In this document: positions 8,830-59,350 of the stretch, one piece after another
How positions within the stretch are numbered: position 1 is the stretch's first letter
Layout of the letters: each line of letters starts with the position of its first letter
NCBI GenBank assembly: GCA_030615745.1
Contig: JAUWYR010000006.1
Coordinates: forward strand, 1-64,000
Source of the DNA: Candidatus Zixiibacteriota bacterium
GTDB taxonomy: Bacteria; Zixibacteria; MSB-5A5; SM23-73-2
Direction of reading: 5' to 3'
Length of the DNA: 64,000 bases
The notes under the pieces: model-generated
Seen by the model: the letters and a program-made list of their open reading frames with translations, nothing else
What the model was told of the DNA's origin: nothing
The model's database searches: none
Made by a program: the position numbers and the translations under genes

Positions 8830-9675
8830 TCAATTTAACTCTTTTAACAACTCCAGAACGAATTCTGCCGAATTATCAGCTACAACTTTCATAAACTCTT
8901 CTAACTCAGCCTCTGCAGTGGAGGAGCCGGAGCCTCCGGCTAAATCAGAGCAACTTCTGACTATTAAGATGGGAACATTGTTAATATTGGCTACCTGAAC
9001 CGAACCTGCTGACTCCATATCAACTATCTGAGCATTAAATTTTTCCTTTAACCACAATCTTTTCTCAACTTGATCGATAAAAGAGTTCCCGCTCACTCCG
9101 TTTCCACCTACTTTAATTTGAGGTAATCTACCCAAAATTGAGCGAAATCTCTTTTTTGCTTCATTTTTAACTGATTGTGCCTTTTCCAAAAGATTTGAAT
9201 CCACTTCAAAGTAAGTGACTGTATCCGATTCTCTTTTTCCTGGCATCGTAACAGGAACAGACATTATTTTAAATCCATTTTTATCGTAATAGCCGAAATC
9301 GTGGGTTACCCACTTATCTGGAATGATTATATCACCAATGTGATTCTCAGGGTTAATCCCACCACAGATCCCGGTGAATATAATCTGTTTAGGCTCGAAT
9401 TTGTCAATTAAAAGCTGAGTAGTCATAGCTGAATTAGTCATACCTATCCCTGAACTAACAACAACTAATTCTTTTTCTTGAAGCTTTCCCATCCAGAAAG
9501 TCCTGCCACAAAAAAATAAGCTATCCTCCAATTCGATATTTTTTCTTAAAAGTTCTCCCTCTTCCTTAAAGGCAAATATTATTGCAGTCCGGCTTTGATA
9601 TTTAGCCTTATCACAGGAAAGCCCAAGAAAGACTAATAATAGTAAAAGTAAAGAGTAAATTATTCTCTTTCTCAA
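8830..9675 (-). CDS. Lipoprotein of the MTA/SAH nucleosidase (PNP/UDP phosphorylase) family
   Basis: This 281-residue protein begins with a lipoprotein signal (LLLLLLVFLGLSC, lipobox LSC at about 19-21). The nucleosidase fold follows: AIIFAFKEEGELL, VVSSGIGMTNSAM, FTGICGGI, GDIIIPD, and the nucleoside-binding VDMESAGSVQVA followed by RSCSD with the family's catalytic aspartate. MTAN enzymes normally cleave 5'-methylthioadenosine or S-adenosylhomocysteine in the cytoplasm. A lipid-anchored, extracytoplasmic copy is unusual and may scavenge nucleosides. The start is a TTG with aaaggag upstream; there is no better ATG. It is last in a seven-gene minus-strand operon, 23 bases after the coiled-coil gene. 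Substrate specificity cannot be read from the sequence. Confidence 0.8.
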   Translation of the reverse strand: MRKRIIYSLLLLLLVFLGLSCDKAKYQSRTAIIFAFKEEGELLRKNIELEDSLFFCGRTFWMGKLQEKELVVVSSGIGMTNSAMTTQLLIDKFEPKQIIFTGICGGINPENHIGDIIIPDKWVTHDFGYYDKNGFKIMSVPVTMPGKRESDTVTYFEVDSNLLEKAQSVKNEAKKRFRSILGRLPQIKVGGNGVSGNSFIDQVEKRLWLKEKFNAQIVDMESAGSVQVANINNVPILIVRSCSDLAGGSGSSTAEAELEEFMKVVADNSAEFVLELLKELN

Positions 9676-9698
9676 ATCTCAAAACTCCTTTCTAAAAC

Positions 9699-10034
9699 TT
9701 AATCTTTTAAATTGGTGTCTGATCTTAAAAGTTCCAGACCTTTTTTGATTTTTTCTATATCTTCTTGAACTCCAATATGCATCTCTGCCAACTTCTTCTC
9801 CAATCCCGTAAGCCTGAGATCAAAAGATTCTAAAAACTCCTTTATCTCAGTTGTGTCTTTTTTCAAATCGTAAAATTCTTTTTTGTACTTCTTATCATCC
9901 GACTCTTTTTCACTGAGAAATTCTTCTATGTTGGAGAGCTTTAAGCTGATATCCTCGAGTTCTTCATCTAAAAGATTCCCCAATTCCTCAATAGCTTCCC
10001 CTATCTCCTCCAAATCCTCTTTTTCTATATCCAT
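9699..10034 (-). CDS. Small acidic coiled-coil protein
   Basis: This 111-residue protein lacks a signal peptide or membrane span and is strongly acidic at its N-terminus (EKEDLEEIGEAIEELG). Heptad-like spacing of hydrophobic residues continues throughout (SLKLSNIEEFLSEKES, DLRLTGLEKKLAEM), predicting one long coiled coil. No family is recognised. Its ATG begins one base after the stop of the zinc-ribbon gene, so the two are probably translationally coupled. It may be a cytoplasmic scaffold or partner for the membrane proteins of this operon (inference). Confidence 0.65.
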   Translation of the reverse strand: MDIEKEDLEEIGEAIEELGNLLDEELEDISLKLSNIEEFLSEKESDDKKYKKEFYDLKKDTTEIKEFLESFDLRLTGLEKKLAEMHIGVQEDIEKIKKGLELLRSDTNLKD

Positions 10035-10035
10035 T

Positions 10036-10197
10036 TTAGACTCCTTTTTTACCCACCTTTTTTATAAAAATTTTTGTTTTTTCTACTTTTTTAGTCTGGA
10101 ATCTGACTTTTCCGCACCTTGGGCATACCCATTTTCTCTGCTTATGAAATGAACGGGTAAGCTCTCTCATCTTCTTCCTACATCTGGGGCAATACAT
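10036..10197 (-). CDS. Zinc-ribbon microprotein (53 aa), not in ORF track
   Basis: Translation of the 160-base gap on the minus strand gives an ATG-started 53-residue protein with two CPRC knuckles (YCPRCRKKM near the start and WVCPRCGK at 23-30), then a lysine-rich tail. The four cysteines form a typical zinc ribbon. Its start lies one base after the stop of the upstream membrane gene, and its stop lies one base before the next start, so it is locked into the operon by translational coupling. The paired knuckles and the exact fit between two genes make chance unlikely. It may bind nucleic acid or another operon product; the function is unknown. Confidence 0.75.
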   Translation of the reverse strand: MYCPRCRKKMRELTRSFHKQRKWVCPRCGKVRFQTKKVEKTKIFIKKVGKKGV

Positions 10198-10198
10198 C

Positions 10199-10795
10199 TC
10201 AATCAATTATATGTAAAAAATCTCCCAAAAGAAACTGAAGCCTTCCGATAAGCAAAGATATTCTCGACATAACTGTATAGCCGAAGGTAGCTCCAAAAAA
10301 GACCATCAAAAACCACGTTCCCACCTTAGCAGGTGCTCCAAACCACCCCGTATGCTTTTTGGAGAAGAAAAAGTATATCAAAGTTGTACACAAAGCTGTC
10401 ATCACCACTATCCCATCGAATGAGGTAAATTTTAACATCGATGCCTTCATCTGTGCCATAATCTGCGCCTCTATCACAGCTGGAATGGATACCCCGGCAC
10501 CTGCACCTATTATCAAAGCCAATGATATTCTTGAGACCCAGCTGATTTTTGGGAAAAATCTTAAAAACATAAAAAAGCCTAAAATTCCGGGGATTATATA
10601 TAAAAGATTCCCCTCTTTAAAAAGTGGTAAAAAAAGCGTGGGCAAAACGGTTGTATTTATGGCGATGACTAAAAAATAGCCTACTGATATACCCACCAGA
10701 AGATGTTCCGCAAACTTGTAAAATGGGTTGTCCTTGTATAAAAATGAAAAGATGAAAAGTGTCAACAAAGCTGATGTCAGAATTCCTATATCCAT
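10199..10795 (-). CDS. Uncharacterised polytopic membrane protein
   Basis: This 198-residue protein is almost entirely hydrophobic, with about six predicted helices (for example ILTSALLTLFIFSFLY, LLVGISVGYFLVIAI, YIIPGILGFFMFL, LALIIGAGAGVSIPAV, WFLMVFFGATFGYTVM). A short polar loop with FSKKHTGWFGAP separates the last two. It has no recognisable transporter or enzyme motif. The ATG lies very close behind gagaggg. It sits between the anchored globular protein upstream and the zinc-ribbon microprotein downstream, all on one strand, and probably forms part of a membrane complex with the other membrane proteins of this operon (inference). Confidence 0.65.
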   Translation of the reverse strand: MDIGILTSALLTLFIFSFLYKDNPFYKFAEHLLVGISVGYFLVIAINTTVLPTLFLPLFKEGNLLYIIPGILGFFMFLRFFPKISWVSRISLALIIGAGAGVSIPAVIEAQIMAQMKASMLKFTSFDGIVVMTALCTTLIYFFFSKKHTGWFGAPAKVGTWFLMVFFGATFGYTVMSRISLLIGRLQFLLGDFLHIID

Positions 10796-10853
10796 CTCCC
10801 TCTCTATTTAGCATCTCTTAGGGATGATAACATCCCTAAGGAACACTAATATT

Positions 10854-11654
10854 TTATTTCCTTAATTTTCCACTCAAAAAATAACTCACATTTCCTAATA
10901 CAACTAAAAGCAAAATCACCACATGAGCAACAGACTGGGCATCCATCCCCTTACTACCCATCCCAGGTTTATTGATCAATATTTCGTATTCCGCAGCTCC
11001 TTTAAGTCCCCCTACCAAGCCAGTTATCTGTTTAGAGCTTAAATATGGATAATATGTGGTTGCCATCACCGCAGTGACCGCAATGGCTACTCTTTGATTA
11101 TACCTTGCCTCTGCGTAATTTATCCAGTAGGTTGGCAGATCACCATCAGCCAAAGATACAACCAGAGAAATATCCTCATAGTTTTTAATCTCTTTGGTAA
11201 GGTTTAATTTTGAAGTGGAAATTCCCTTGTAATCCTCTGGAAATACACGATGTAGGTCTTCGCCTAAACCTAAGATCGCAGCAGTATATTGGGGTCTGAA
11301 ACCTAAGAAAACGTAATCTCTACCATATTTCCTATCATATTCATTCGCCACATTTCTCAAAATCTCATCCCCGATTGCAGTCCCCTCAGCAAGCAAAGCG
11401 AAGCTTACAACTTTAAGATTTTTAGAAAAACAATGCCTTAAAATCGCTTGAGCCATTGGTTTTATCTCAGGCAAGGATGAAGCCTCGTGGTCGAATGATA
11501 CTAAAACAACTTCACCCTGCTCCAACTCCTCAATAGAATCATAGACCATCTTCACTTCCTTGGTCACCTTATTGGGAAGACCTATCTTGAATATCAGAGG
11601 AATCGCAACAGAGATTGCGATTAAGACAAAAATTATTCTACGGTCTATTTTCAT
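10854..11654 (-). CDS. Uncharacterised doubly anchored membrane protein
   Basis: The track frame opens at a non-ATG codon inside the upstream gene. I place the start at the internal ATG (MKIDRRIIFVL), giving 266 residues and a 4-base gap to the upstream stop. An N-terminal helix (IIFVLIAISVAIPLIF) and a C-terminal helix (HVVILLLVVLGNVSYFL) flank a soluble region of about 210 residues with alternating beta and alpha segments (GEVVLVSFDHEASSLPE, LKVVSFALLAEGTAIG, GRDYVFLGFRPQYTAAILG). No enzyme signature is recognised, though the DHEAS, GTAIG and LADGDLPTYW segments look conserved-type. The central domain probably lies on one side of the membrane and works with the neighbouring polytopic proteins. 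Confidence 0.65.
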   Translation of the reverse strand: MKIDRRIIFVLIAISVAIPLIFKIGLPNKVTKEVKMVYDSIEELEQGEVVLVSFDHEASSLPEIKPMAQAILRHCFSKNLKVVSFALLAEGTAIGDEILRNVANEYDRKYGRDYVFLGFRPQYTAAILGLGEDLHRVFPEDYKGISTSKLNLTKEIKNYEDISLVVSLADGDLPTYWINYAEARYNQRVAIAVTAVMATTYYPYLSSKQITGLVGGLKGAAEYEILINKPGMGSKGMDAQSVAHVVILLLVVLGNVSYFLSGKLRK

Positions 11655-11658
11655 CTTT

Positions 11659-12279
11659 CTATTCTCTCCCCAGATAAGTCCTTTCAATCCCTAAAATGAT
11701 TCTCAAAGAGGTCGAAATCGTTCCCAATCCAATTCCGATTAGAATTCCTCTCCTTGCTGCCATCGAGGGGAAATTCAAAATCCAGTTGGCTAAATCAGGA
11801 ACCGATGAATGGATCATCTCTCCTATCGGGACCCGACCCAACATAACTATGCCTGCGGACAGAAGAAGAATCGTCGCCTCTTTAGTCCTTGCCCTGAATC
11901 CTCTGTAAGCAGCAGAAGCAACAAAGAATGCTAAGAGAGAAAACATCGTTGACTGCATGGGAACCTGGAGATTATTGAACATCCATAAAAAAGGTGAACC
12001 CTGATCTGTCCCTTTTGCAAATCCCAAAATTACCATTGAGAAAAGTCCTAAAAGAGCAATCAGATTGTATCCCCATCCCTTTGCTTTATCCGAAACTTTT
12101 TTGCTATTTATCTTTATGTAATTGGCTACCCCTACCAGTAATGTAAAAACATATATGATCTGCATCCAGTCTAAGACATTTTCATAAGCAAAGATAAATG
12201 ATCTTTTAGGAATGAAAAACTGAATCAGCATAAATGCGCCAAAACCAAAACAGACTATAATCGGTAACTGCCTTCTCAT
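11659..12279 (-). CDS. Uncharacterised polytopic membrane protein
   Basis: The 206 residues contain five to six predicted helices (LPIIVCFGFGAFMLIQFF, IIYVFTLLVGVANYI, LIALLGLFSMVILGFA, TMFSLLAFFVASAAY, ILLLSAGIVMLG, ILIGIGLGTISTSLRIIL). Short polar loops separate them, including FAKGTDQGSPFLWMFNNLQ between helices 3 and 4. No family is recognised by eye. It lies 51 bases downstream of the DUF6754-like gene and 4 bases upstream of the doubly anchored protein, consistent with one transcript and stoichiometric production. I see no charged residues inside helices that would suggest a transporter path. Confidence 0.65.
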   Translation of the reverse strand: MRRQLPIIVCFGFGAFMLIQFFIPKRSFIFAYENVLDWMQIIYVFTLLVGVANYIKINSKKVSDKAKGWGYNLIALLGLFSMVILGFAKGTDQGSPFLWMFNNLQVPMQSTMFSLLAFFVASAAYRGFRARTKEATILLLSAGIVMLGRVPIGEMIHSSVPDLANWILNFPSMAARRGILIGIGLGTISTSLRIILGIERTYLGRE

Positions 12280-12330
12280 CTTACTAAGATATTATGATAG
12301 ACAGGGCACCTTGCCCTCTCTTTTTTCATC

Positions 12331-13215
12331 TTAAGGAAAAAGCTTTGTGAGAAATTCAGAATTAAACGTTGCCAAGATTCCACCAGCTAAAACCAAGATT
12401 ATTATTAAAATCTTCAAAAAGTCCTGCCCTTTTATGCTTCCCAAGACCATAGGGTCTTTTGTCAAATATCCGCTGGCTGCAAAAAGCTCCTCCCCGATCA
12501 AGGTATAATCGCAGGCAACAATAAAAAATGAGAGCTGGATAGTGGAATCTGTCCCAGCTATCTGAATTGCTCCTATGGAGTTTCCGGTCTCAGCCAGAAT
12601 CAAAGATTCTGCCTCGAATGTTCCTAAGAAAAGATTGGTCGCGGGCTTTTGCCTCACCATTATCCCATCGACCGCTGCCACGTAACCGAACTGGCTCTGG
12701 GTGACGAAGAAGATATTATCCGGATTGTAAAACTCAGGATGCCCGGCTCTGGTAAAACTCTCCTTAACAACCTCCTGTGCAACAGCCATAACAACTGGGT
12801 CGTAATTAGGAAAGATCAAAGGAGTGTTATACTCGGCAACTTTTTCAGCGACAGTTCCTAATATGTTCATCGAAGCCATAGTAGCCACTCTATCCATTTT
12901 GCCCAGACCAGCAGAATATAGAATCGGCTTACCCATCTCAGTCGCTCTTCCTATAGCATCATCTATTGCCTGAAGACCAGCTATTTCACGGATAAAAAGC
13001 TTCCCCTTCTTTTTGCCATAGATTATAAAGAAAAATATCAAAACAATACAGGTAACTAATCCAGCAAGGACATTTGCTTTGTTAGGGTCAAACCACCTCT
13101 GTTTTAACTCTTCTACTTCATTTTTCTGGGCGAATGCAGGTGCAATCGAATTGAGAAGAAAAAAGAAAAGTAATAATAAAAACAATATGAAAATTCTTTT
13201 TTTAGGTTTCAGCAT
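12331..13215 (-). CDS. Membrane protein, probably DUF6754 family
   Basis: The 294-residue protein has an apparent signal peptide (LFLLLLFFFLLNSIAPAFA), a second helix (VLAGLVTCIVLIFFFIIY), a conserved-looking soluble domain (REIAGLQAIDDAIGRATEMG, KPILYSAGLGKMDRVATMAS) and a C-terminal helix (LKILIIILVLAGGILATF). The DAIGRATEMGKP segment resembles what I recall of DUF6754 proteins, so that assignment is tentative. It heads the seven-gene minus-strand operon. No good SD is visible at the ATG. By recall, such proteins occur with other uncharacterised membrane proteins in several candidate phyla; nothing in the sequence states the function. Confidence 0.6.
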   Translation of the reverse strand: MLKPKKRIFILFLLLLFFFLLNSIAPAFAQKNEVEELKQRWFDPNKANVLAGLVTCIVLIFFFIIYGKKKGKLFIREIAGLQAIDDAIGRATEMGKPILYSAGLGKMDRVATMASMNILGTVAEKVAEYNTPLIFPNYDPVVMAVAQEVVKESFTRAGHPEFYNPDNIFFVTQSQFGYVAAVDGIMVRQKPATNLFLGTFEAESLILAETGNSIGAIQIAGTDSTIQLSFFIVACDYTLIGEELFAASGYLTKDPMVLGSIKGQDFLKILIIILVLAGGILATFNSEFLTKLFP

Positions 13216-13301: not shown

Positions 13302-13413
13302 TCCCCCGCATTTTGCGGGGGAATCTACGACTTCAGCTTTACCTCAAACTTTACTTGACAAAAAGCTCAGATTTAATTATTCAATATCCGTAGGTCGGAT
13401 TTCCAAATCCGAC
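13302..13413. repeat. Two intergenic hairpins
   Basis: A GC-rich hairpin (tcccccgca-tttt-gcggggga region, 13302-13322) is followed by gtcggattt-cc-aaatccgac at 13394-13413. The second, with its flank cgtag, recurs in reverse orientation at 59255-59279. They lie between divergent genes, so they are not simple terminators. A weak promoter-like TTGACA (13355) lies between them. Confidence 0.55.
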
Positions 13414-13439: not shown

Positions 13440-14675
13440 ATGCCAATTATGAAAAAACTAATTTTAGTCACTTTTCTTTTCTTATCAATACTTTCCTGCT
13501 CTGATAGAAAAGAAGAGGTTCAAATCCACCTTTCCTTCTGGCAGTTCTGGACTGATCCTGAGGTCAGCCCAACAATTGCGAAGTTAGTATCTGAATTCGA
13601 AGAGGAGAATCCAGGGGTAAAAATAAATCTCACTGACCTGACCTGGTCAGATGGACATGAGAAGATAGTCGTTGCTTTCAGTTCGAAAACCGCACCCGAT
13701 GTTTTGGAATTGGGCTCTGACTGGGTTTCTGAGTTCTCATCTGAAGGTGTTCTTATGGATATCACAGAACAGGCGGAAAAAATAAAAGAGAACCACCTTA
13801 TGTGGGGGCCTGTTACCTACAAAGGGAAAATCTATGGATTCCCCTGGATTTTAGACACCAGGGTTTTGTTTTATAATAAACATTTGATGAAAGAAGTTGG
13901 ATTGGACCCCGAAAATTTTCCCCAGACCTGGGATGAGCTTCTGGACTTCTGCAAAAAAATCAACACTTTAAAACCGAAAGCTTACGGTTTTGGAGCTAAT
14001 TCTTTTGAACGACACAGGTTATACAAAAAGTTTTTGCCTTTCTTCTGGTCAAACGGAGGTAAAATATTAAATAAAGACTGGACTGAATCTCAAATCAACA
14101 GTTCTGAAGGGGTGCAAGCTTTAGAGTATTATAAAAAGTTAACAAAACAAGGTTTAATGGATACTCAAAGAAATTTAGATGAAAGGTTCAAAAAAAATCA
14201 AATTGGATTTTTGATCTCAGGTGGATGGCTTCTACACAATATCGAAAAAAACCATCCAGAACTTAATTTTGGAGTCTGTCTTATGCCCAAACCGAAAAAG
14301 GATAAAGGAATTCCTGCATCATTTGCCGGAGGGGAGTATCTGGTGATAAGTAAGGATTCAAAACATAAAAAAGAGGCAATAAAATTTATAAAATTTTTTA
14401 TAAAAAAAGAAAACTGTTTAAAACTTTGCAAGACCATCGGAAGTGCATCTCCATCAGCAAAAGATGCTCATTTGGACCCATATTATCAAAACGACAAAAA
14501 TCTTTCGGTTTTCCAGAATCAGCTAAGATATTCAATCTCTCCACCTGCTCATCCCAAATGGGTTTATATCGAAGAGATAATCGAGAAAGCAGTGGAAAAT
14601 GTGATGTATGATAAGAAAACGCCTGAACAGGCTCTGGGTGAAGCGAAGATAAGAATAGATAGGCTATTAAAGTAG
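13440..14675 (+). CDS. Sugar ABC transporter substrate-binding lipoprotein (orphan)
   Basis: This 411-residue protein has a lipobox (LFLSILSCSD) and the layout of family 1 extracellular solute-binding proteins: HLSFWQFWTDPEVSPTIAKL at the mature N-terminus, EFEEENPGVKINLTDLTWSDG, APDVLELGSDWVSEF, then a periplasmic two-lobe body with SFAGGEYLVISKDSKHKK near residue 285. It would bind a sugar or oligosaccharide for uptake. No permease or ATPase gene is adjacent; a complete importer with its own binding protein lies at 46.9-51.3 kb. Two ATGs three codons apart (13440, 13449) both fit. The TAG stop is embedded in a palindromic repeat that begins at 14672. Confidence 0.85.
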   Translation: MPIMKKLILVTFLFLSILSCSDRKEEVQIHLSFWQFWTDPEVSPTIAKLVSEFEEENPGVKINLTDLTWSDGHEKIVVAFSSKTAPDVLELGSDWVSEFSSEGVLMDITEQAEKIKENHLMWGPVTYKGKIYGFPWILDTRVLFYNKHLMKEVGLDPENFPQTWDELLDFCKKINTLKPKAYGFGANSFERHRLYKKFLPFFWSNGGKILNKDWTESQINSSEGVQALEYYKKLTKQGLMDTQRNLDERFKKNQIGFLISGGWLLHNIEKNHPELNFGVCLMPKPKKDKGIPASFAGGEYLVISKDSKHKKEAIKFIKFFIKKENCLKLCKTIGSASPSAKDAHLDPYYQNDKNLSVFQNQLRYSISPPAHPKWVYIEEIIEKAVENVMYDKKTPEQALGEAKIRIDRLLK

Positions 14676-14996: not shown

Positions 14997-15142
14997 TTTA
15001 ATTAGTGATTTTAAAAAGAAAAGCTTTGTTCTTGACGGATGTTAGCCCAGACGAATCTTTGTTATCCGCCAATGTTTAAAGTTTCGGTGAAGATAACTGA
15101 TAGGTATAATATCTCGTGAAAATAAAGTAATGATGTGATGTG

Positions 15143-16651
15143 ATGAAAAAAAGGAAAATTGTTCTCTATTTTATTTTTTGTGCTTTAATCTTCTTTTTTT
15201 GCTCCGATTGTGGAAAGCAACCTGAGGTTGAGAAGATTACGATTTTTTACTGGAACGATTTCCATGCGTCATTTCATCCTTACCGGTCCTCTTTTGACCC
15301 TGAATCACCTTTTGTCTCAGGTAGCGCTTATTTTTCTTCCTGGCTTGATTCCTTGAAGAAAAGAAGTGATAATTCGGTTTCAGTCTGTGCTGGGGATGAG
15401 TTGATGGGAACACCACTTTCCACTTTGACTTCTGGTAAAGCTGAGTTTGAGATTTTGAATATTATACGACCTGATGTTTTTGAACTGGGCAACCATGAGT
15501 TCGATTATGGATTGGAGAACCTGAGAAGTTTAATAGATTTTGCTGAGTTTCCGATTATTTGTGCTAATGTAATCGATGAAGAAACCGACACTACTTTAGT
15601 TCCACCTTATTTGATTTTGCAAAAAGGAAAAGCAAAACTTGCTTTTTTGGGATTGAATACTGAAACCCTGAAGCAGGTGGTAGTGGAAAAAGGGACTGTG
15701 GGACTGAAGGTAAAATCAGCGAAGAAGACTCTGGAAAAGTATTTGGACTCCTTAGATAAAGAAACTGACTTGATTGTTTTGGTCAGCCATATGGGGATCG
15801 AAAAAGATAAGAAGATAGCTAAAATGGTTAAAGGGATAGATATAATTATCGGCGGGCACAGCCATACTTTTCTTTTTTATCCAAAGGTAATTAACCAAAC
15901 GGTAATATGTCAGGCGGGTTCCAAAGGCAGGTACATCGGAAAATTAGATCTGGTCGTTGATTTGGAGAAAGATAGGCTAATAAACTATGAGGGAAGACTA
16001 ATTGAAACTTTGAATGATAAAGTTTCCCCAAATCTTTTTATTCAGCAAAAAATCGATTCTTTAGAAAAAAGTCTTGCGCCTGATTTAGACAAAGTTATAG
16101 GTGAGCTTTTAACTCCCTGGAAAAGAAAATCTGATGGTGAATCTAATTTAGGAAACTGGGAGGCGGATGTGATGAGGGAGCATACAAACTCTGATGTTGC
16201 TTTTATTAACTCAGGTGGAATGAGGAAAGACCTGCCAAAAGGACAAATAAAAGTTCGTGATATATGGGAGATAAATCCATTCTCAGACCATTTTGTCAGT
16301 TTTTATTTAACCGGAAAGCAGCTTCTAAATGTGTTAGAGCTTAACTCTTCTTTTGATTATGTGCTTATGCAGGTCTCTGGAGTCAAATATAGTTACGATC
16401 CCAGAAGACCTAAAGGGAAAAGGGTGATCGATTTGTGGATAGATGAAAAACCACTTTTGCCGAATAAAAGATATAAAGTAGCTATCAACGATTATATGCT
16501 GGACCATTTGGAAAAGTATATCGGAATTTCAAAAAAGAAAATAGATTACAGAATTTTTCCTGAACTTGACCGGGATGTATTTATTAAAGCAGTAAAAAAG
16601 CAAAAAATAATAGATTCTAAAATTGAGGGCAGGATTAAAAAGAAAAGATAA
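15143..16651 (+). CDS. 5'-nucleotidase / UDP-sugar hydrolase family lipoprotein
   Basis: The protein (502 residues from the ATG at 15143; the track uses a GTG one codon earlier) has a lipoprotein-like signal with cysteines near FFFCSDCGK. The metallophosphatase domain carries the expected metal motifs: FYWNDFHASF, CAGDELMGTP, LGNHEFDYGLENL, VLVSHMG and GGHSHTF. The C-terminal 5'-nucleotidase domain (about 310-490) has FINSGGMRKDLPKG for substrate binding. Such enzymes hydrolyse extracellular nucleotides to nucleosides and phosphate. Together with the nucleosidase lipoprotein at 8.8 kb it hints at nucleotide salvage at the cell surface (inference). The next gene follows after 15 bases. Confidence 0.88.
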   Translation: MKKRKIVLYFIFCALIFFFCSDCGKQPEVEKITIFYWNDFHASFHPYRSSFDPESPFVSGSAYFSSWLDSLKKRSDNSVSVCAGDELMGTPLSTLTSGKAEFEILNIIRPDVFELGNHEFDYGLENLRSLIDFAEFPIICANVIDEETDTTLVPPYLILQKGKAKLAFLGLNTETLKQVVVEKGTVGLKVKSAKKTLEKYLDSLDKETDLIVLVSHMGIEKDKKIAKMVKGIDIIIGGHSHTFLFYPKVINQTVICQAGSKGRYIGKLDLVVDLEKDRLINYEGRLIETLNDKVSPNLFIQQKIDSLEKSLAPDLDKVIGELLTPWKRKSDGESNLGNWEADVMREHTNSDVAFINSGGMRKDLPKGQIKVRDIWEINPFSDHFVSFYLTGKQLLNVLELNSSFDYVLMQVSGVKYSYDPRRPKGKRVIDLWIDEKPLLPNKRYKVAINDYMLDHLEKYIGISKKKIDYRIFPELDRDVFIKAVKKQKIIDSKIEGRIKKKR

Positions 16652-59254: not shown

Positions 59255-59350
59255 GGTCGGATTTGGAAATCCGACCTACGGGAGCTTACTCATCCACCTT
59301 ACCCCTAACCCCTCTCCTCTTAAGGAGAGGGGAACAAAAGGGGTGAGGTT
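59255..59350. repeat. Two dispersed palindromic repeats
   Basis: ggtcggatttggaaatccgacctac (59255-59279) is the reversed copy of 13390-13413. acccctaacccctctcctct...gaggggaacaaaaggggtgagg (59301-59348) is a copy of 58536-58583. The 79-aa ORF over this stretch is an artefact. Confidence 0.7.

Follow-up and report, generated by a model that had tools for sequence, protein, structure and literature searches.

Four adjacent genes of the window, the whole 64,000-nucleotide stretch of contig JAUWYR010000006.1 from a Candidatus Zixiibacteriota bacterium, recur as a conserved unit, A-B-C-D, and very probably encode one membrane machine. This system is apparently undescribed, as the literature search returned no paper that uses the name DUF6754 and no other relevant work. 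We judge it evenly balanced whether the four proteins represent a new and ancient class of inner-membrane machine. Such a machine would comprise four subunits that are inherited together, with a Rossmann-like domain on either side of the membrane. It would be near-universal in at least two phyla, Cloacimonadota and that of the window, would also occur in many more, and would have been duplicated into tandem arrays of paralogous complexes that evolve together and are assisted by a MutL-type ATPase.

An ORF check of the window confirmed the seven genes on one strand that the original prediction had described (Table 1). The junctions of one base (D-E and E-F) and of four bases (B-C) were also correct, and the remaining intergenic gaps were 51 nt (A-B), 58 nt (C-D) and 23 nt (F-G). 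For C, the listed TTG at position 11687 is an alternative start upstream of the ATG. The gap between C and D holds a perfect inverted repeat that has no second occurrence anywhere in the window. A is a full-length, high-scoring member of DUF6754, with 368.9 bits against a Pfam cut-off of 27 over model positions 2-257 of 257, and B, C and D gave no Pfam or NCBIfam match above cut-off.

Table 1. Genes and local elements of the window around the A-B-C-D cassette.
Feature	Position	Strand	Description
A	12331..13215	-	DUF6754 (PF20539), 294 aa; N-terminal signal/anchor
B	11659..12279	-	206 aa, polytopic, about 5-6 TM segments, outside known families
C	10854..11654	-	266 aa, two anchors, ATG start, outside known families
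D	10199..10795	-	198 aa, polytopic, 6 TM segments, outside known families
E	10036..10197	-	53 aa, ATG start, zinc-ribbon-like, CPRC...CPRC
F	9699..10034	-	111 aa, coiled-coil protein
G	8830..9675	-	281 aa, TTG start, MTA/SAH-nucleosidase-like lipoprotein
Perfect inverted repeat	10817..10841	-	C-D gap; RNA hairpin without U tract
Sugar-type ABC solute-binding lipoprotein gene	13440..14675	+	PF01547, 168.6 bits; divergent from A

The single conserved seven-gene operon that had been proposed did not hold, and the recurring unit across the loci compared was A-B-C-D, to which E is added in one paralogue clade. Gene order was kept in 161 of the 176 testable cases for A followed by B, in 150 of 160 for B followed by C and in 149 of 154 for C followed by D, with median gaps across loci of 12, 0 and 2 nt, respectively. 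A was present in all genomes of the phylum (133/133) and C in 129 of 130, including 79/79 among the better genomes. The unit also occurs in many other, mostly uncultured lineages, including anammox planctomycetes, whose sampled genomes carry one cassette together with the partner genes MutL and K described below. The genes thus stay together and in order across many phyla, the opposite of the dispersed homologues that would speak against the prediction.

The cassette is often found in tandem, in arrays of two to three copies. The window's genome contains five paralogous sets, three of them tandem; because the fifth is divided between contigs, with A-B on one and C-D on another, adjacency of the four genes is not absolute. 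Neither the five sets nor the MutL-K partners could have been seen in a first reading of the window alone. Trees were built separately for A, B, C and D, and jointly. The separate trees showed the same cassette clades, the only mismatch being one extra row in P2 (B and C), and this concordance indicates that each set is inherited as one unit. Two fusions, one of A with a peptidase S49 (L132) and one of C with D (L134), come from the same long-read MAG and were left out as evidence, because they may be indel artefacts.

The copy in the window is of an old subtype, the S type, in which E is a conserved fifth gene. E was present in all nine S-type members that could be checked, after D in L022, L031, L034, L040, L048, L075 and L147 and farther downstream in L148. 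Its sequence contains two CPxC-type knuckles (CPRC and CPRC), and the relatives keep CPxC or CRxC pairs. Judged by these motifs, E is a zinc-ribbon-like protein. It is a true member in this paralogue's clade, and its earlier inclusion was upheld to this extent. Homologues of the solute-binding protein gene are transcribed away from A in L022, L031, L034, L040, L042, L048, L075 and L147, and the gene is a usual, not an invariable, neighbour of S cassettes. In the window's genome this link to sugar transport is partly broken, as the related permeases are found on a different contig. Importers of the sugar ABC type (SBP_bac_1 plus permeases) are likewise multi-subunit membrane systems; however, Pfam, NCBIfam and PDB sequence searches assigned neither B nor D to an ABC permease family, and the cassette contains no ABC ATPase.

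F and G are local genes outside the core cassette. HMM matches of F were confined to the window, L147 and L148, homologues of G at the locus were likewise restricted to the window's order (L147 and L148), and in relatives extra genes are inserted between E and F/G. A seven-gene complex was ruled out on these grounds. Of the dedicated, undescribed membrane complex in the original prediction, therefore, the ABCD system stood and the composition did not, E being confined to one clade and F and G being local. By its sequence, G is an ordinary nucleosidase-type lipoprotein of the MTA/SAH-nucleosidase superfamily, with 94.7 bits for TIGR01704 (cut-off 73.8), 148.9 bits for PF01048 and 159.9 bits for NF004079, just under the cut-off of 169. 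The motifs KEE, DMES and SDLA align with MEE, EMEA and SDLA of an MTAN structure (PDB 4gmh). We take the aligned residues to be the glutamates and the aspartate that act in catalysis in this family. Whereas MTA/SAH nucleosidase is a cytoplasmic enzyme, G is a predicted lipoprotein by its N-terminal signal, which ends in the lipobox LGLSC. A role in the SAM cycle was considered because of G here and of MetK and AhcY, which neighbour the fifth cassette and also L047; among about 100 loci, MetK/AhcY occurred independently only twice, which is near chance by a rough estimate, and the role was kept as a lead only. A defence function was rejected, since PADLOC gave no match for A-E or K; its matches were generic nucleosidase-type ones for G and one weak coiled-coil match for F.

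The predicted models of A (pLDDT 89) and C (pLDDT 95.6) both showed an alternating beta-alpha order within a TM-Rossmannoid-TM architecture, and in A the Rossmann-like domain lies between TM segments at about residues 44-70 and about 266-284. The two architectures are alike despite lacking profile support: recognisable homology of A and C found no support at a profile-comparison probability of 6%, on the TM helix only, and neither did homology of B and D. Foldseek matches were weak and generic, with a best E of 6.5e-3 for A (nothing at 1e-3) and 5.5e-4 for C, and TM-scores of about 0.3-0.4 in general and 0.34-0.48 for C. The SLOG/Moco-carrier protein (PDB 2iz7 and 6y01), an alternating beta-alpha Rossmann-like domain, was the top or a near-top fold match for both, with weak scores and no sequence match; this carrier is soluble, whereas in A and C each end of the domain is tethered to the membrane. 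No close PDB relative of A or C was found by fold, and the absence of a close match to any known family agreed with the original prediction. PDB sequence searches gave no relatives for B and D, nothing credible for C and K, no match for the soluble domain of either A or C, and FN3 matches only, to the N-terminal part, for A.

Topology was assessed from the charge bias computed over 154 family sequences. In A, the K+R count is 4.6 immediately after TM1 vs 0.8 after TM2, and in C it is 3.1 before TM1 and 4.1 after TM2, suggesting that the domain of A is cytoplasmic and that of C is periplasmic. The array paralogues of A carry a periplasmic FN3 domain, and the window A has none. Most invariant residues of A follow predicted strands (G103, G198-E203, E209-G211, G221-T222, D236 and E242-E243), a position consistent with a Rossmann-type pocket; given the weak and generic Foldseek matches, we regard a ligand pocket in A or C as putative.

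In several phyla, A is immediately preceded on its 5' side by two genes, one for a MutL-family ATPase and the other, K, conserved and lipoyl-like. Both are absent from the window, and MutL is present in the window's genome and its relatives. The ATPase gene upstream of the arrays is a clear member of MutL/GlmL (PF13941), scoring above cut-off with 431 bits in L090 and 349 bits in the copy of the window's genome (L010). Known members of this family accompany cobalamin-dependent mutases, whereas the partners here are K and ABCD. K scored 16.2 and 17.3 bits against Biotinyl-lipoyl (PF00364), below the cut-off of 22.1. MutL-K fused ORFs exist, in which RnfC_N and NQRA_N were under cut-off, and in several genomes, such as G090, MutL-K is unlinked to the array.

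That A, B, C and D probably form one complex is well supported, and we tentatively propose, as a plausible reading of its function, that they are obligate subunits of one inner-membrane complex that moves or senses a ligand from two sides. The polytopic B and D would form the core within the membrane, A would expose its Rossmann-like domain to the cytoplasm and, in the majority of paralogues, a fibronectin-III domain to the periplasm, and C would hold a second Rossmann-like domain on the periplasmic side. Pockets on both faces, inside in A and outside in C, would be coupled via B and D, so as to move or sense, in whichever direction the complex may act, a small polar ligand, perhaps of the sugar or nucleotide type. 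From the cytoplasmic side, the MutL-family ASKHA ATPase and the lipoyl-like K may mature the complex or supply it with energy. Paralogous cassettes would provide parallel or joint versions of it, and the window copy would be a specialised S-type version with the small E added and a genomic link to sugar uptake. The lack of a recognisable transport motif, ATPase or kinase within ABCD speaks against this mechanism.

The domains on both faces of the membrane would also suit a signal transducer, in which C, on the periplasmic side, and A, with its FN3 domain, detect a ligand or the envelope state and, through B and D, cause the cytoplasmic domain of A to regulate a partner. The many paralogues per genome could then sense different inputs, sugar in the S type, in keeping with the divergent sugar-binding-protein gene, and a STAS-domain gene sits inside one cassette. 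We nevertheless consider this reading unlikely: an output domain, whether kinase, cyclase, HTH or another, is absent from A-D, the strict requirement for B and D alongside C exceeds what a receptor would need, and the presence in almost every genome of arrays with near-identical architecture points to a core task and not to an optional sensory one. A little less likely still is an envelope scaffold or assembly platform, organising for example envelope synthesis or a secretion machine. The paralogous cassettes would then supply the subunits of a single large hetero-oligomer, and MutL-K would be a chaperone that uses ATP to assemble it. Triplicated arrays that keep paralogue identity fit such a platform, as do the FN3 domains of A, the large N-terminal extensions in Cloacimonadota, and the membership of MutL in the ASKHA family, whose known relatives are, by family names, accessory proteins of mutases. 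However, genomes with a single cassette exist (G136, G137 and G139, each with one DUF6754 gene), so a multi-cassette oligomer is not required, and the invariant polar residues seem to resemble a pocket rather than an interface only.

The loosely assembled 3' end of the run, with F, G and the genes inserted in relatives, would suit merely co-regulated envelope genes held by operon selection, the seven-gene run being a local operon. As an account of A-D we hold this to be very improbable, since the near-strict order, the co-duplication of all four genes and their concordant trees are unexpected for loosely related genes, and most members have no solo copies.

The finding is similar in type to the FESNov catalogue (PMC10849945), which collects unknown but conserved gene families from uncultivated taxa whose genomic context is conserved as well; the main text of that work names neither Zixibacteria, DUF nor Cloacimonadota, and its supplementary tables could list some of the families. 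The DUF6754 family is without assigned function, and its Pfam entry name refers neither to the three partner families nor to the repetition of the cassette nor to the link with MutL-K. With three families lacking a Pfam or NCBIfam model and the fourth a DUF, the ABCD system has been invisible until now. The near-universal occurrence of a multi-copy system in a whole phylum, together with its presence in many other lineages, suggests that it likely has a basic envelope or energy role, and the defined unit of ABCD and MutL-K makes its function directly testable.

The seven minus-strand ORFs of the window, designated A to G, were separated in that order by gaps of 51, 4, 58, 1, 1 and 23 nt, matching the original prediction of two one-base junctions and one of four bases. 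No Pfam or NCBIfam match above cut-off was obtained for the polytopic B and D or the doubly anchored C. G could be aligned to solved MTA/SAH nucleosidases and retained the KEE, DMES and SDLA motifs. The C-D gap contains an inverted repeat forming a hairpin with no U tract and no second copy within the window, which could be an RNA-processing site, an attenuation site or a mobile palindrome. Upstream of A lies a 26-nt sequence, TCGGATTTGGAAATCCGACCTACGG, that contains a palindrome. Beyond the solute-binding gene next to A is a 5'-nucleotidase-type gene, so that A-B-C-D is flanked on both sides by nucleotide- or nucleoside-type hydrolases, the other being G.

Features of the window and of related loci (coordinates within the window or the locus named)
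Feature	Location	Strand	Remark
ORFs A to G	window 13215-8830	-	seven genes
A, DUF6754		-	PF20539, 368.9 bits, cut-off 27
E, zinc-ribbon-like microprotein		-	
F, coiled coil		-	
G, MTA/SAH-nucleosidase-type protein		-	lipoprotein signal; Pfam, NCBIfam
C-D gap	window 10796-10853		perfect 10-bp inverted repeat
Hairpin in C-D gap	window 10817-10841		-22.9 kcal/mol, z -4.6
26-nt sequence	window 13387-13412		
Second copy	window 59257-59282		one mismatch
5'-nucleotidase-type gene	window 15140-16651		PF02872
Fifth cassette type	L155 7507-14800		also L011, L161
Three tandem genes	L047 7833-9575		~185 aa each
A-peptidase S49 fusion	L132 8321-10708		long-read MAG G023
C-D fusion	L134 3539-5254		long-read MAG G023
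W gene	L010 2073-2480		16 other loci
MutL-K fusion ORF	L162 2465-5308		K half with repeated barrel-sandwich-like segments
MutL-K fusion ORF	L163 1768-4569		as above
MutL-K fusion ORF	L164 563-3358		as above

Iterated profiles matched A in all 103 loci, B in 99, C in 94, D in 90, E in 5, and F and G in one each. A-B-C-D was the recurring gene order, frequently in two or three repeats; once all later loci were added and cases at contig ends left out, the next gene was B after A in 161 of 176 cases, C after B in 150 of 160, and D after C in 149 of 154, with median gaps of 12, 0 and 2 nt, respectively. The claim of a seven-gene unit therefore held for an in-order A-B-C-D core, found together in records of many phyla, but not for the seven genes as one set, as E is added in one paralogue clade and F and G are local.

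Within the window's own assembly there were five PF20539 matches, and the locus DNA had diverged matches on contigs C27 and C55. C27 carries three A-B-C-D sets (cassettes) in tandem (L009), C55 carries A-B alone (L011), and contig C12 a fifth C with D; identities to the window proteins across the other cassettes were ~50% for A, 45-55% for B, ~40% for C and ~45% for D. A fifth cassette type, A-B-STAS-C-D, is followed 3' by NDP-sugar pyrophosphorylase-like, SAM-synthetase-like and adenosylhomocysteinase-like genes, and is split in the window's genome, with A-B and C-D on different contigs.

When 157 complete cassettes were placed in one joint tree (FastTree, local supports), positions 1, 2 and 3 of tandem arrays from different families fell into separate clades, and the window cassette belonged to a distinct clade, S, together with L017, L020, L022, L031, L034, L040, L048, L075, L147 and L148. 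In the window's order, array positions 2 and 3 hold paralogues other than those in the rest of the phylum. Separate A, B, C and D trees each recovered the same five clades, the sole deviation being one extra row, L091, in clade P2 for B and C. Paralogous cassettes have thus not exchanged genes, as would be expected of co-adapted subunits.

The periplasmic FN3 domain, present in the majority of other A proteins, is missing from most of those in the S clade. Of the nine S-clade loci with downstream sequence available, eight have E directly 3' of D; in L148, from another family of the window's order, E lies farther downstream and a 566-aa secreted-type protein is encoded between D and E. Genes for a methyltransferase in L147 (sister genome) and a D-alanyl-D-alanine carboxypeptidase-type protein in L148 split E from F, ruling out F and G as subunits of the conserved system and indicating that they form a local tail. 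A sugar-type ABC solute-binding gene adjoins A divergently in the window and eight relatives, and is followed by two permease genes in seven of the eight; related permeases occur on another contig of the window's genome without that binding protein close by, and in genome G105 the binding protein and permeases are together near the cassette array instead. The sugar-transporter link is thus repeated, not rigid.

A was present in 133 of 133 genomes of the window's phylum, mostly in three to six copies, C in 129 of 130 (79 of 79 better genomes), and A in 30 of 31 sampled Cloacimonadota genomes; 14 well-known genomes used as controls all lacked A. Further A-bearing records were titled, not always correctly, Stahlbacteria, WOR-3, Latescibacterota, Edwardsbacteria, Fermentibacteria, Poribacteria, anammox Planctomycetota, Armatimonadota, Gemmatimonadaceae and others. 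The "Ignavibacterium" title of L022 (G133) is probably wrong, because its match coordinates and scores are identical to those of G078, from the window's phylum, and the two are apparently one genome. L094, a record titled Zixiibacteriota, and L153, from genome G104 of the window's order, carry identical cassettes, which makes Zixibacteria the probable phylum of the window. Besides shorter forms, Cloacimonadota have DUF6754 proteins of ~930-1050 aa with long N-terminal extensions (L065, L072, L080, L083; genomes G135-G174); the one tested, from L072, gave no Pfam match. In L047, three tandem genes lie directly 5' of a cassette, the first with a sub-threshold match to a haem-NO-binding family. 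The two fusions in G023 are possible indel artefacts.

MutL-family genes (PF13941, ASKHA ATPase family) were found in 34 loci and the partner gene K in 32. The usual arrangement is W-MutL-K, placed immediately 5' of A or close to the array, with K-A gaps of a few bases (e.g., L032, L037, L090). K (~375 aa, 60% mean identity across partner-gene records) has a lipoyl-like start scoring under the Pfam cut-off. Of 130 genomes from the window's phylum, 121 carry K (78 of the 79 better ones), sometimes away from the array. W, a family of ~110-160 aa without Pfam matches, usually lies 5' of MutL. In three genomes, ORFs of 931-947 aa join a MutL half, Pfam-confirmed in two of the three, to a distant K half, which supports the view that MutL and K would act together.

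The predicted structures of A (pLDDT 89) and C (pLDDT 95.6) were alike: a TM, an extra helix, an alternating beta-alpha domain of six strands and a second TM. Profile comparison of A and C found no sequence homology. Foldseek gave weak Rossmann-like matches only, and for each protein the molybdenum-cofactor carrier protein ranked first or nearly so, in keeping with the original prediction of an undescribed complex. Mean K+R counts in the 15 residues flanking the TMs of 154 family members were 1.8 before and 4.6 after TM1 and 2.3 before and 0.8 after TM2 for A, and 3.1, 1.6, 1.9 and 4.1 for C. The positive side is thus the domain side in A and the outer side, toward the protein ends, in C, and by the positive-inside rule the A domain would be cytoplasmic and the C domain periplasmic. 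Rossmann-type folds bind ligands after strands, and in both A and C many of the invariant positions follow predicted strands, from which we infer a candidate Rossmann-type ligand site.

Conserved order and co-inheritance suggested that ABCD very probably forms one heteromeric inner-membrane complex. In the reading we tentatively prefer, a ligand would be moved or sensed between putative pockets of A, in the cytoplasm, and C, in the periplasm, with B and D as a possible route between them and MutL-K as a putative ATP-dependent partner. A pure signal transducer appears unlikely, and a structural platform slightly more so; we favor ligand movement or sensing over both.

The DUF6754 name and a description of the system were not found in the literature searched, chiefly the main texts of open-access papers, and the families may already be catalogued somewhere without function. 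No tested family resembles the ABCD system, which as a gene system lies far from known kinds.
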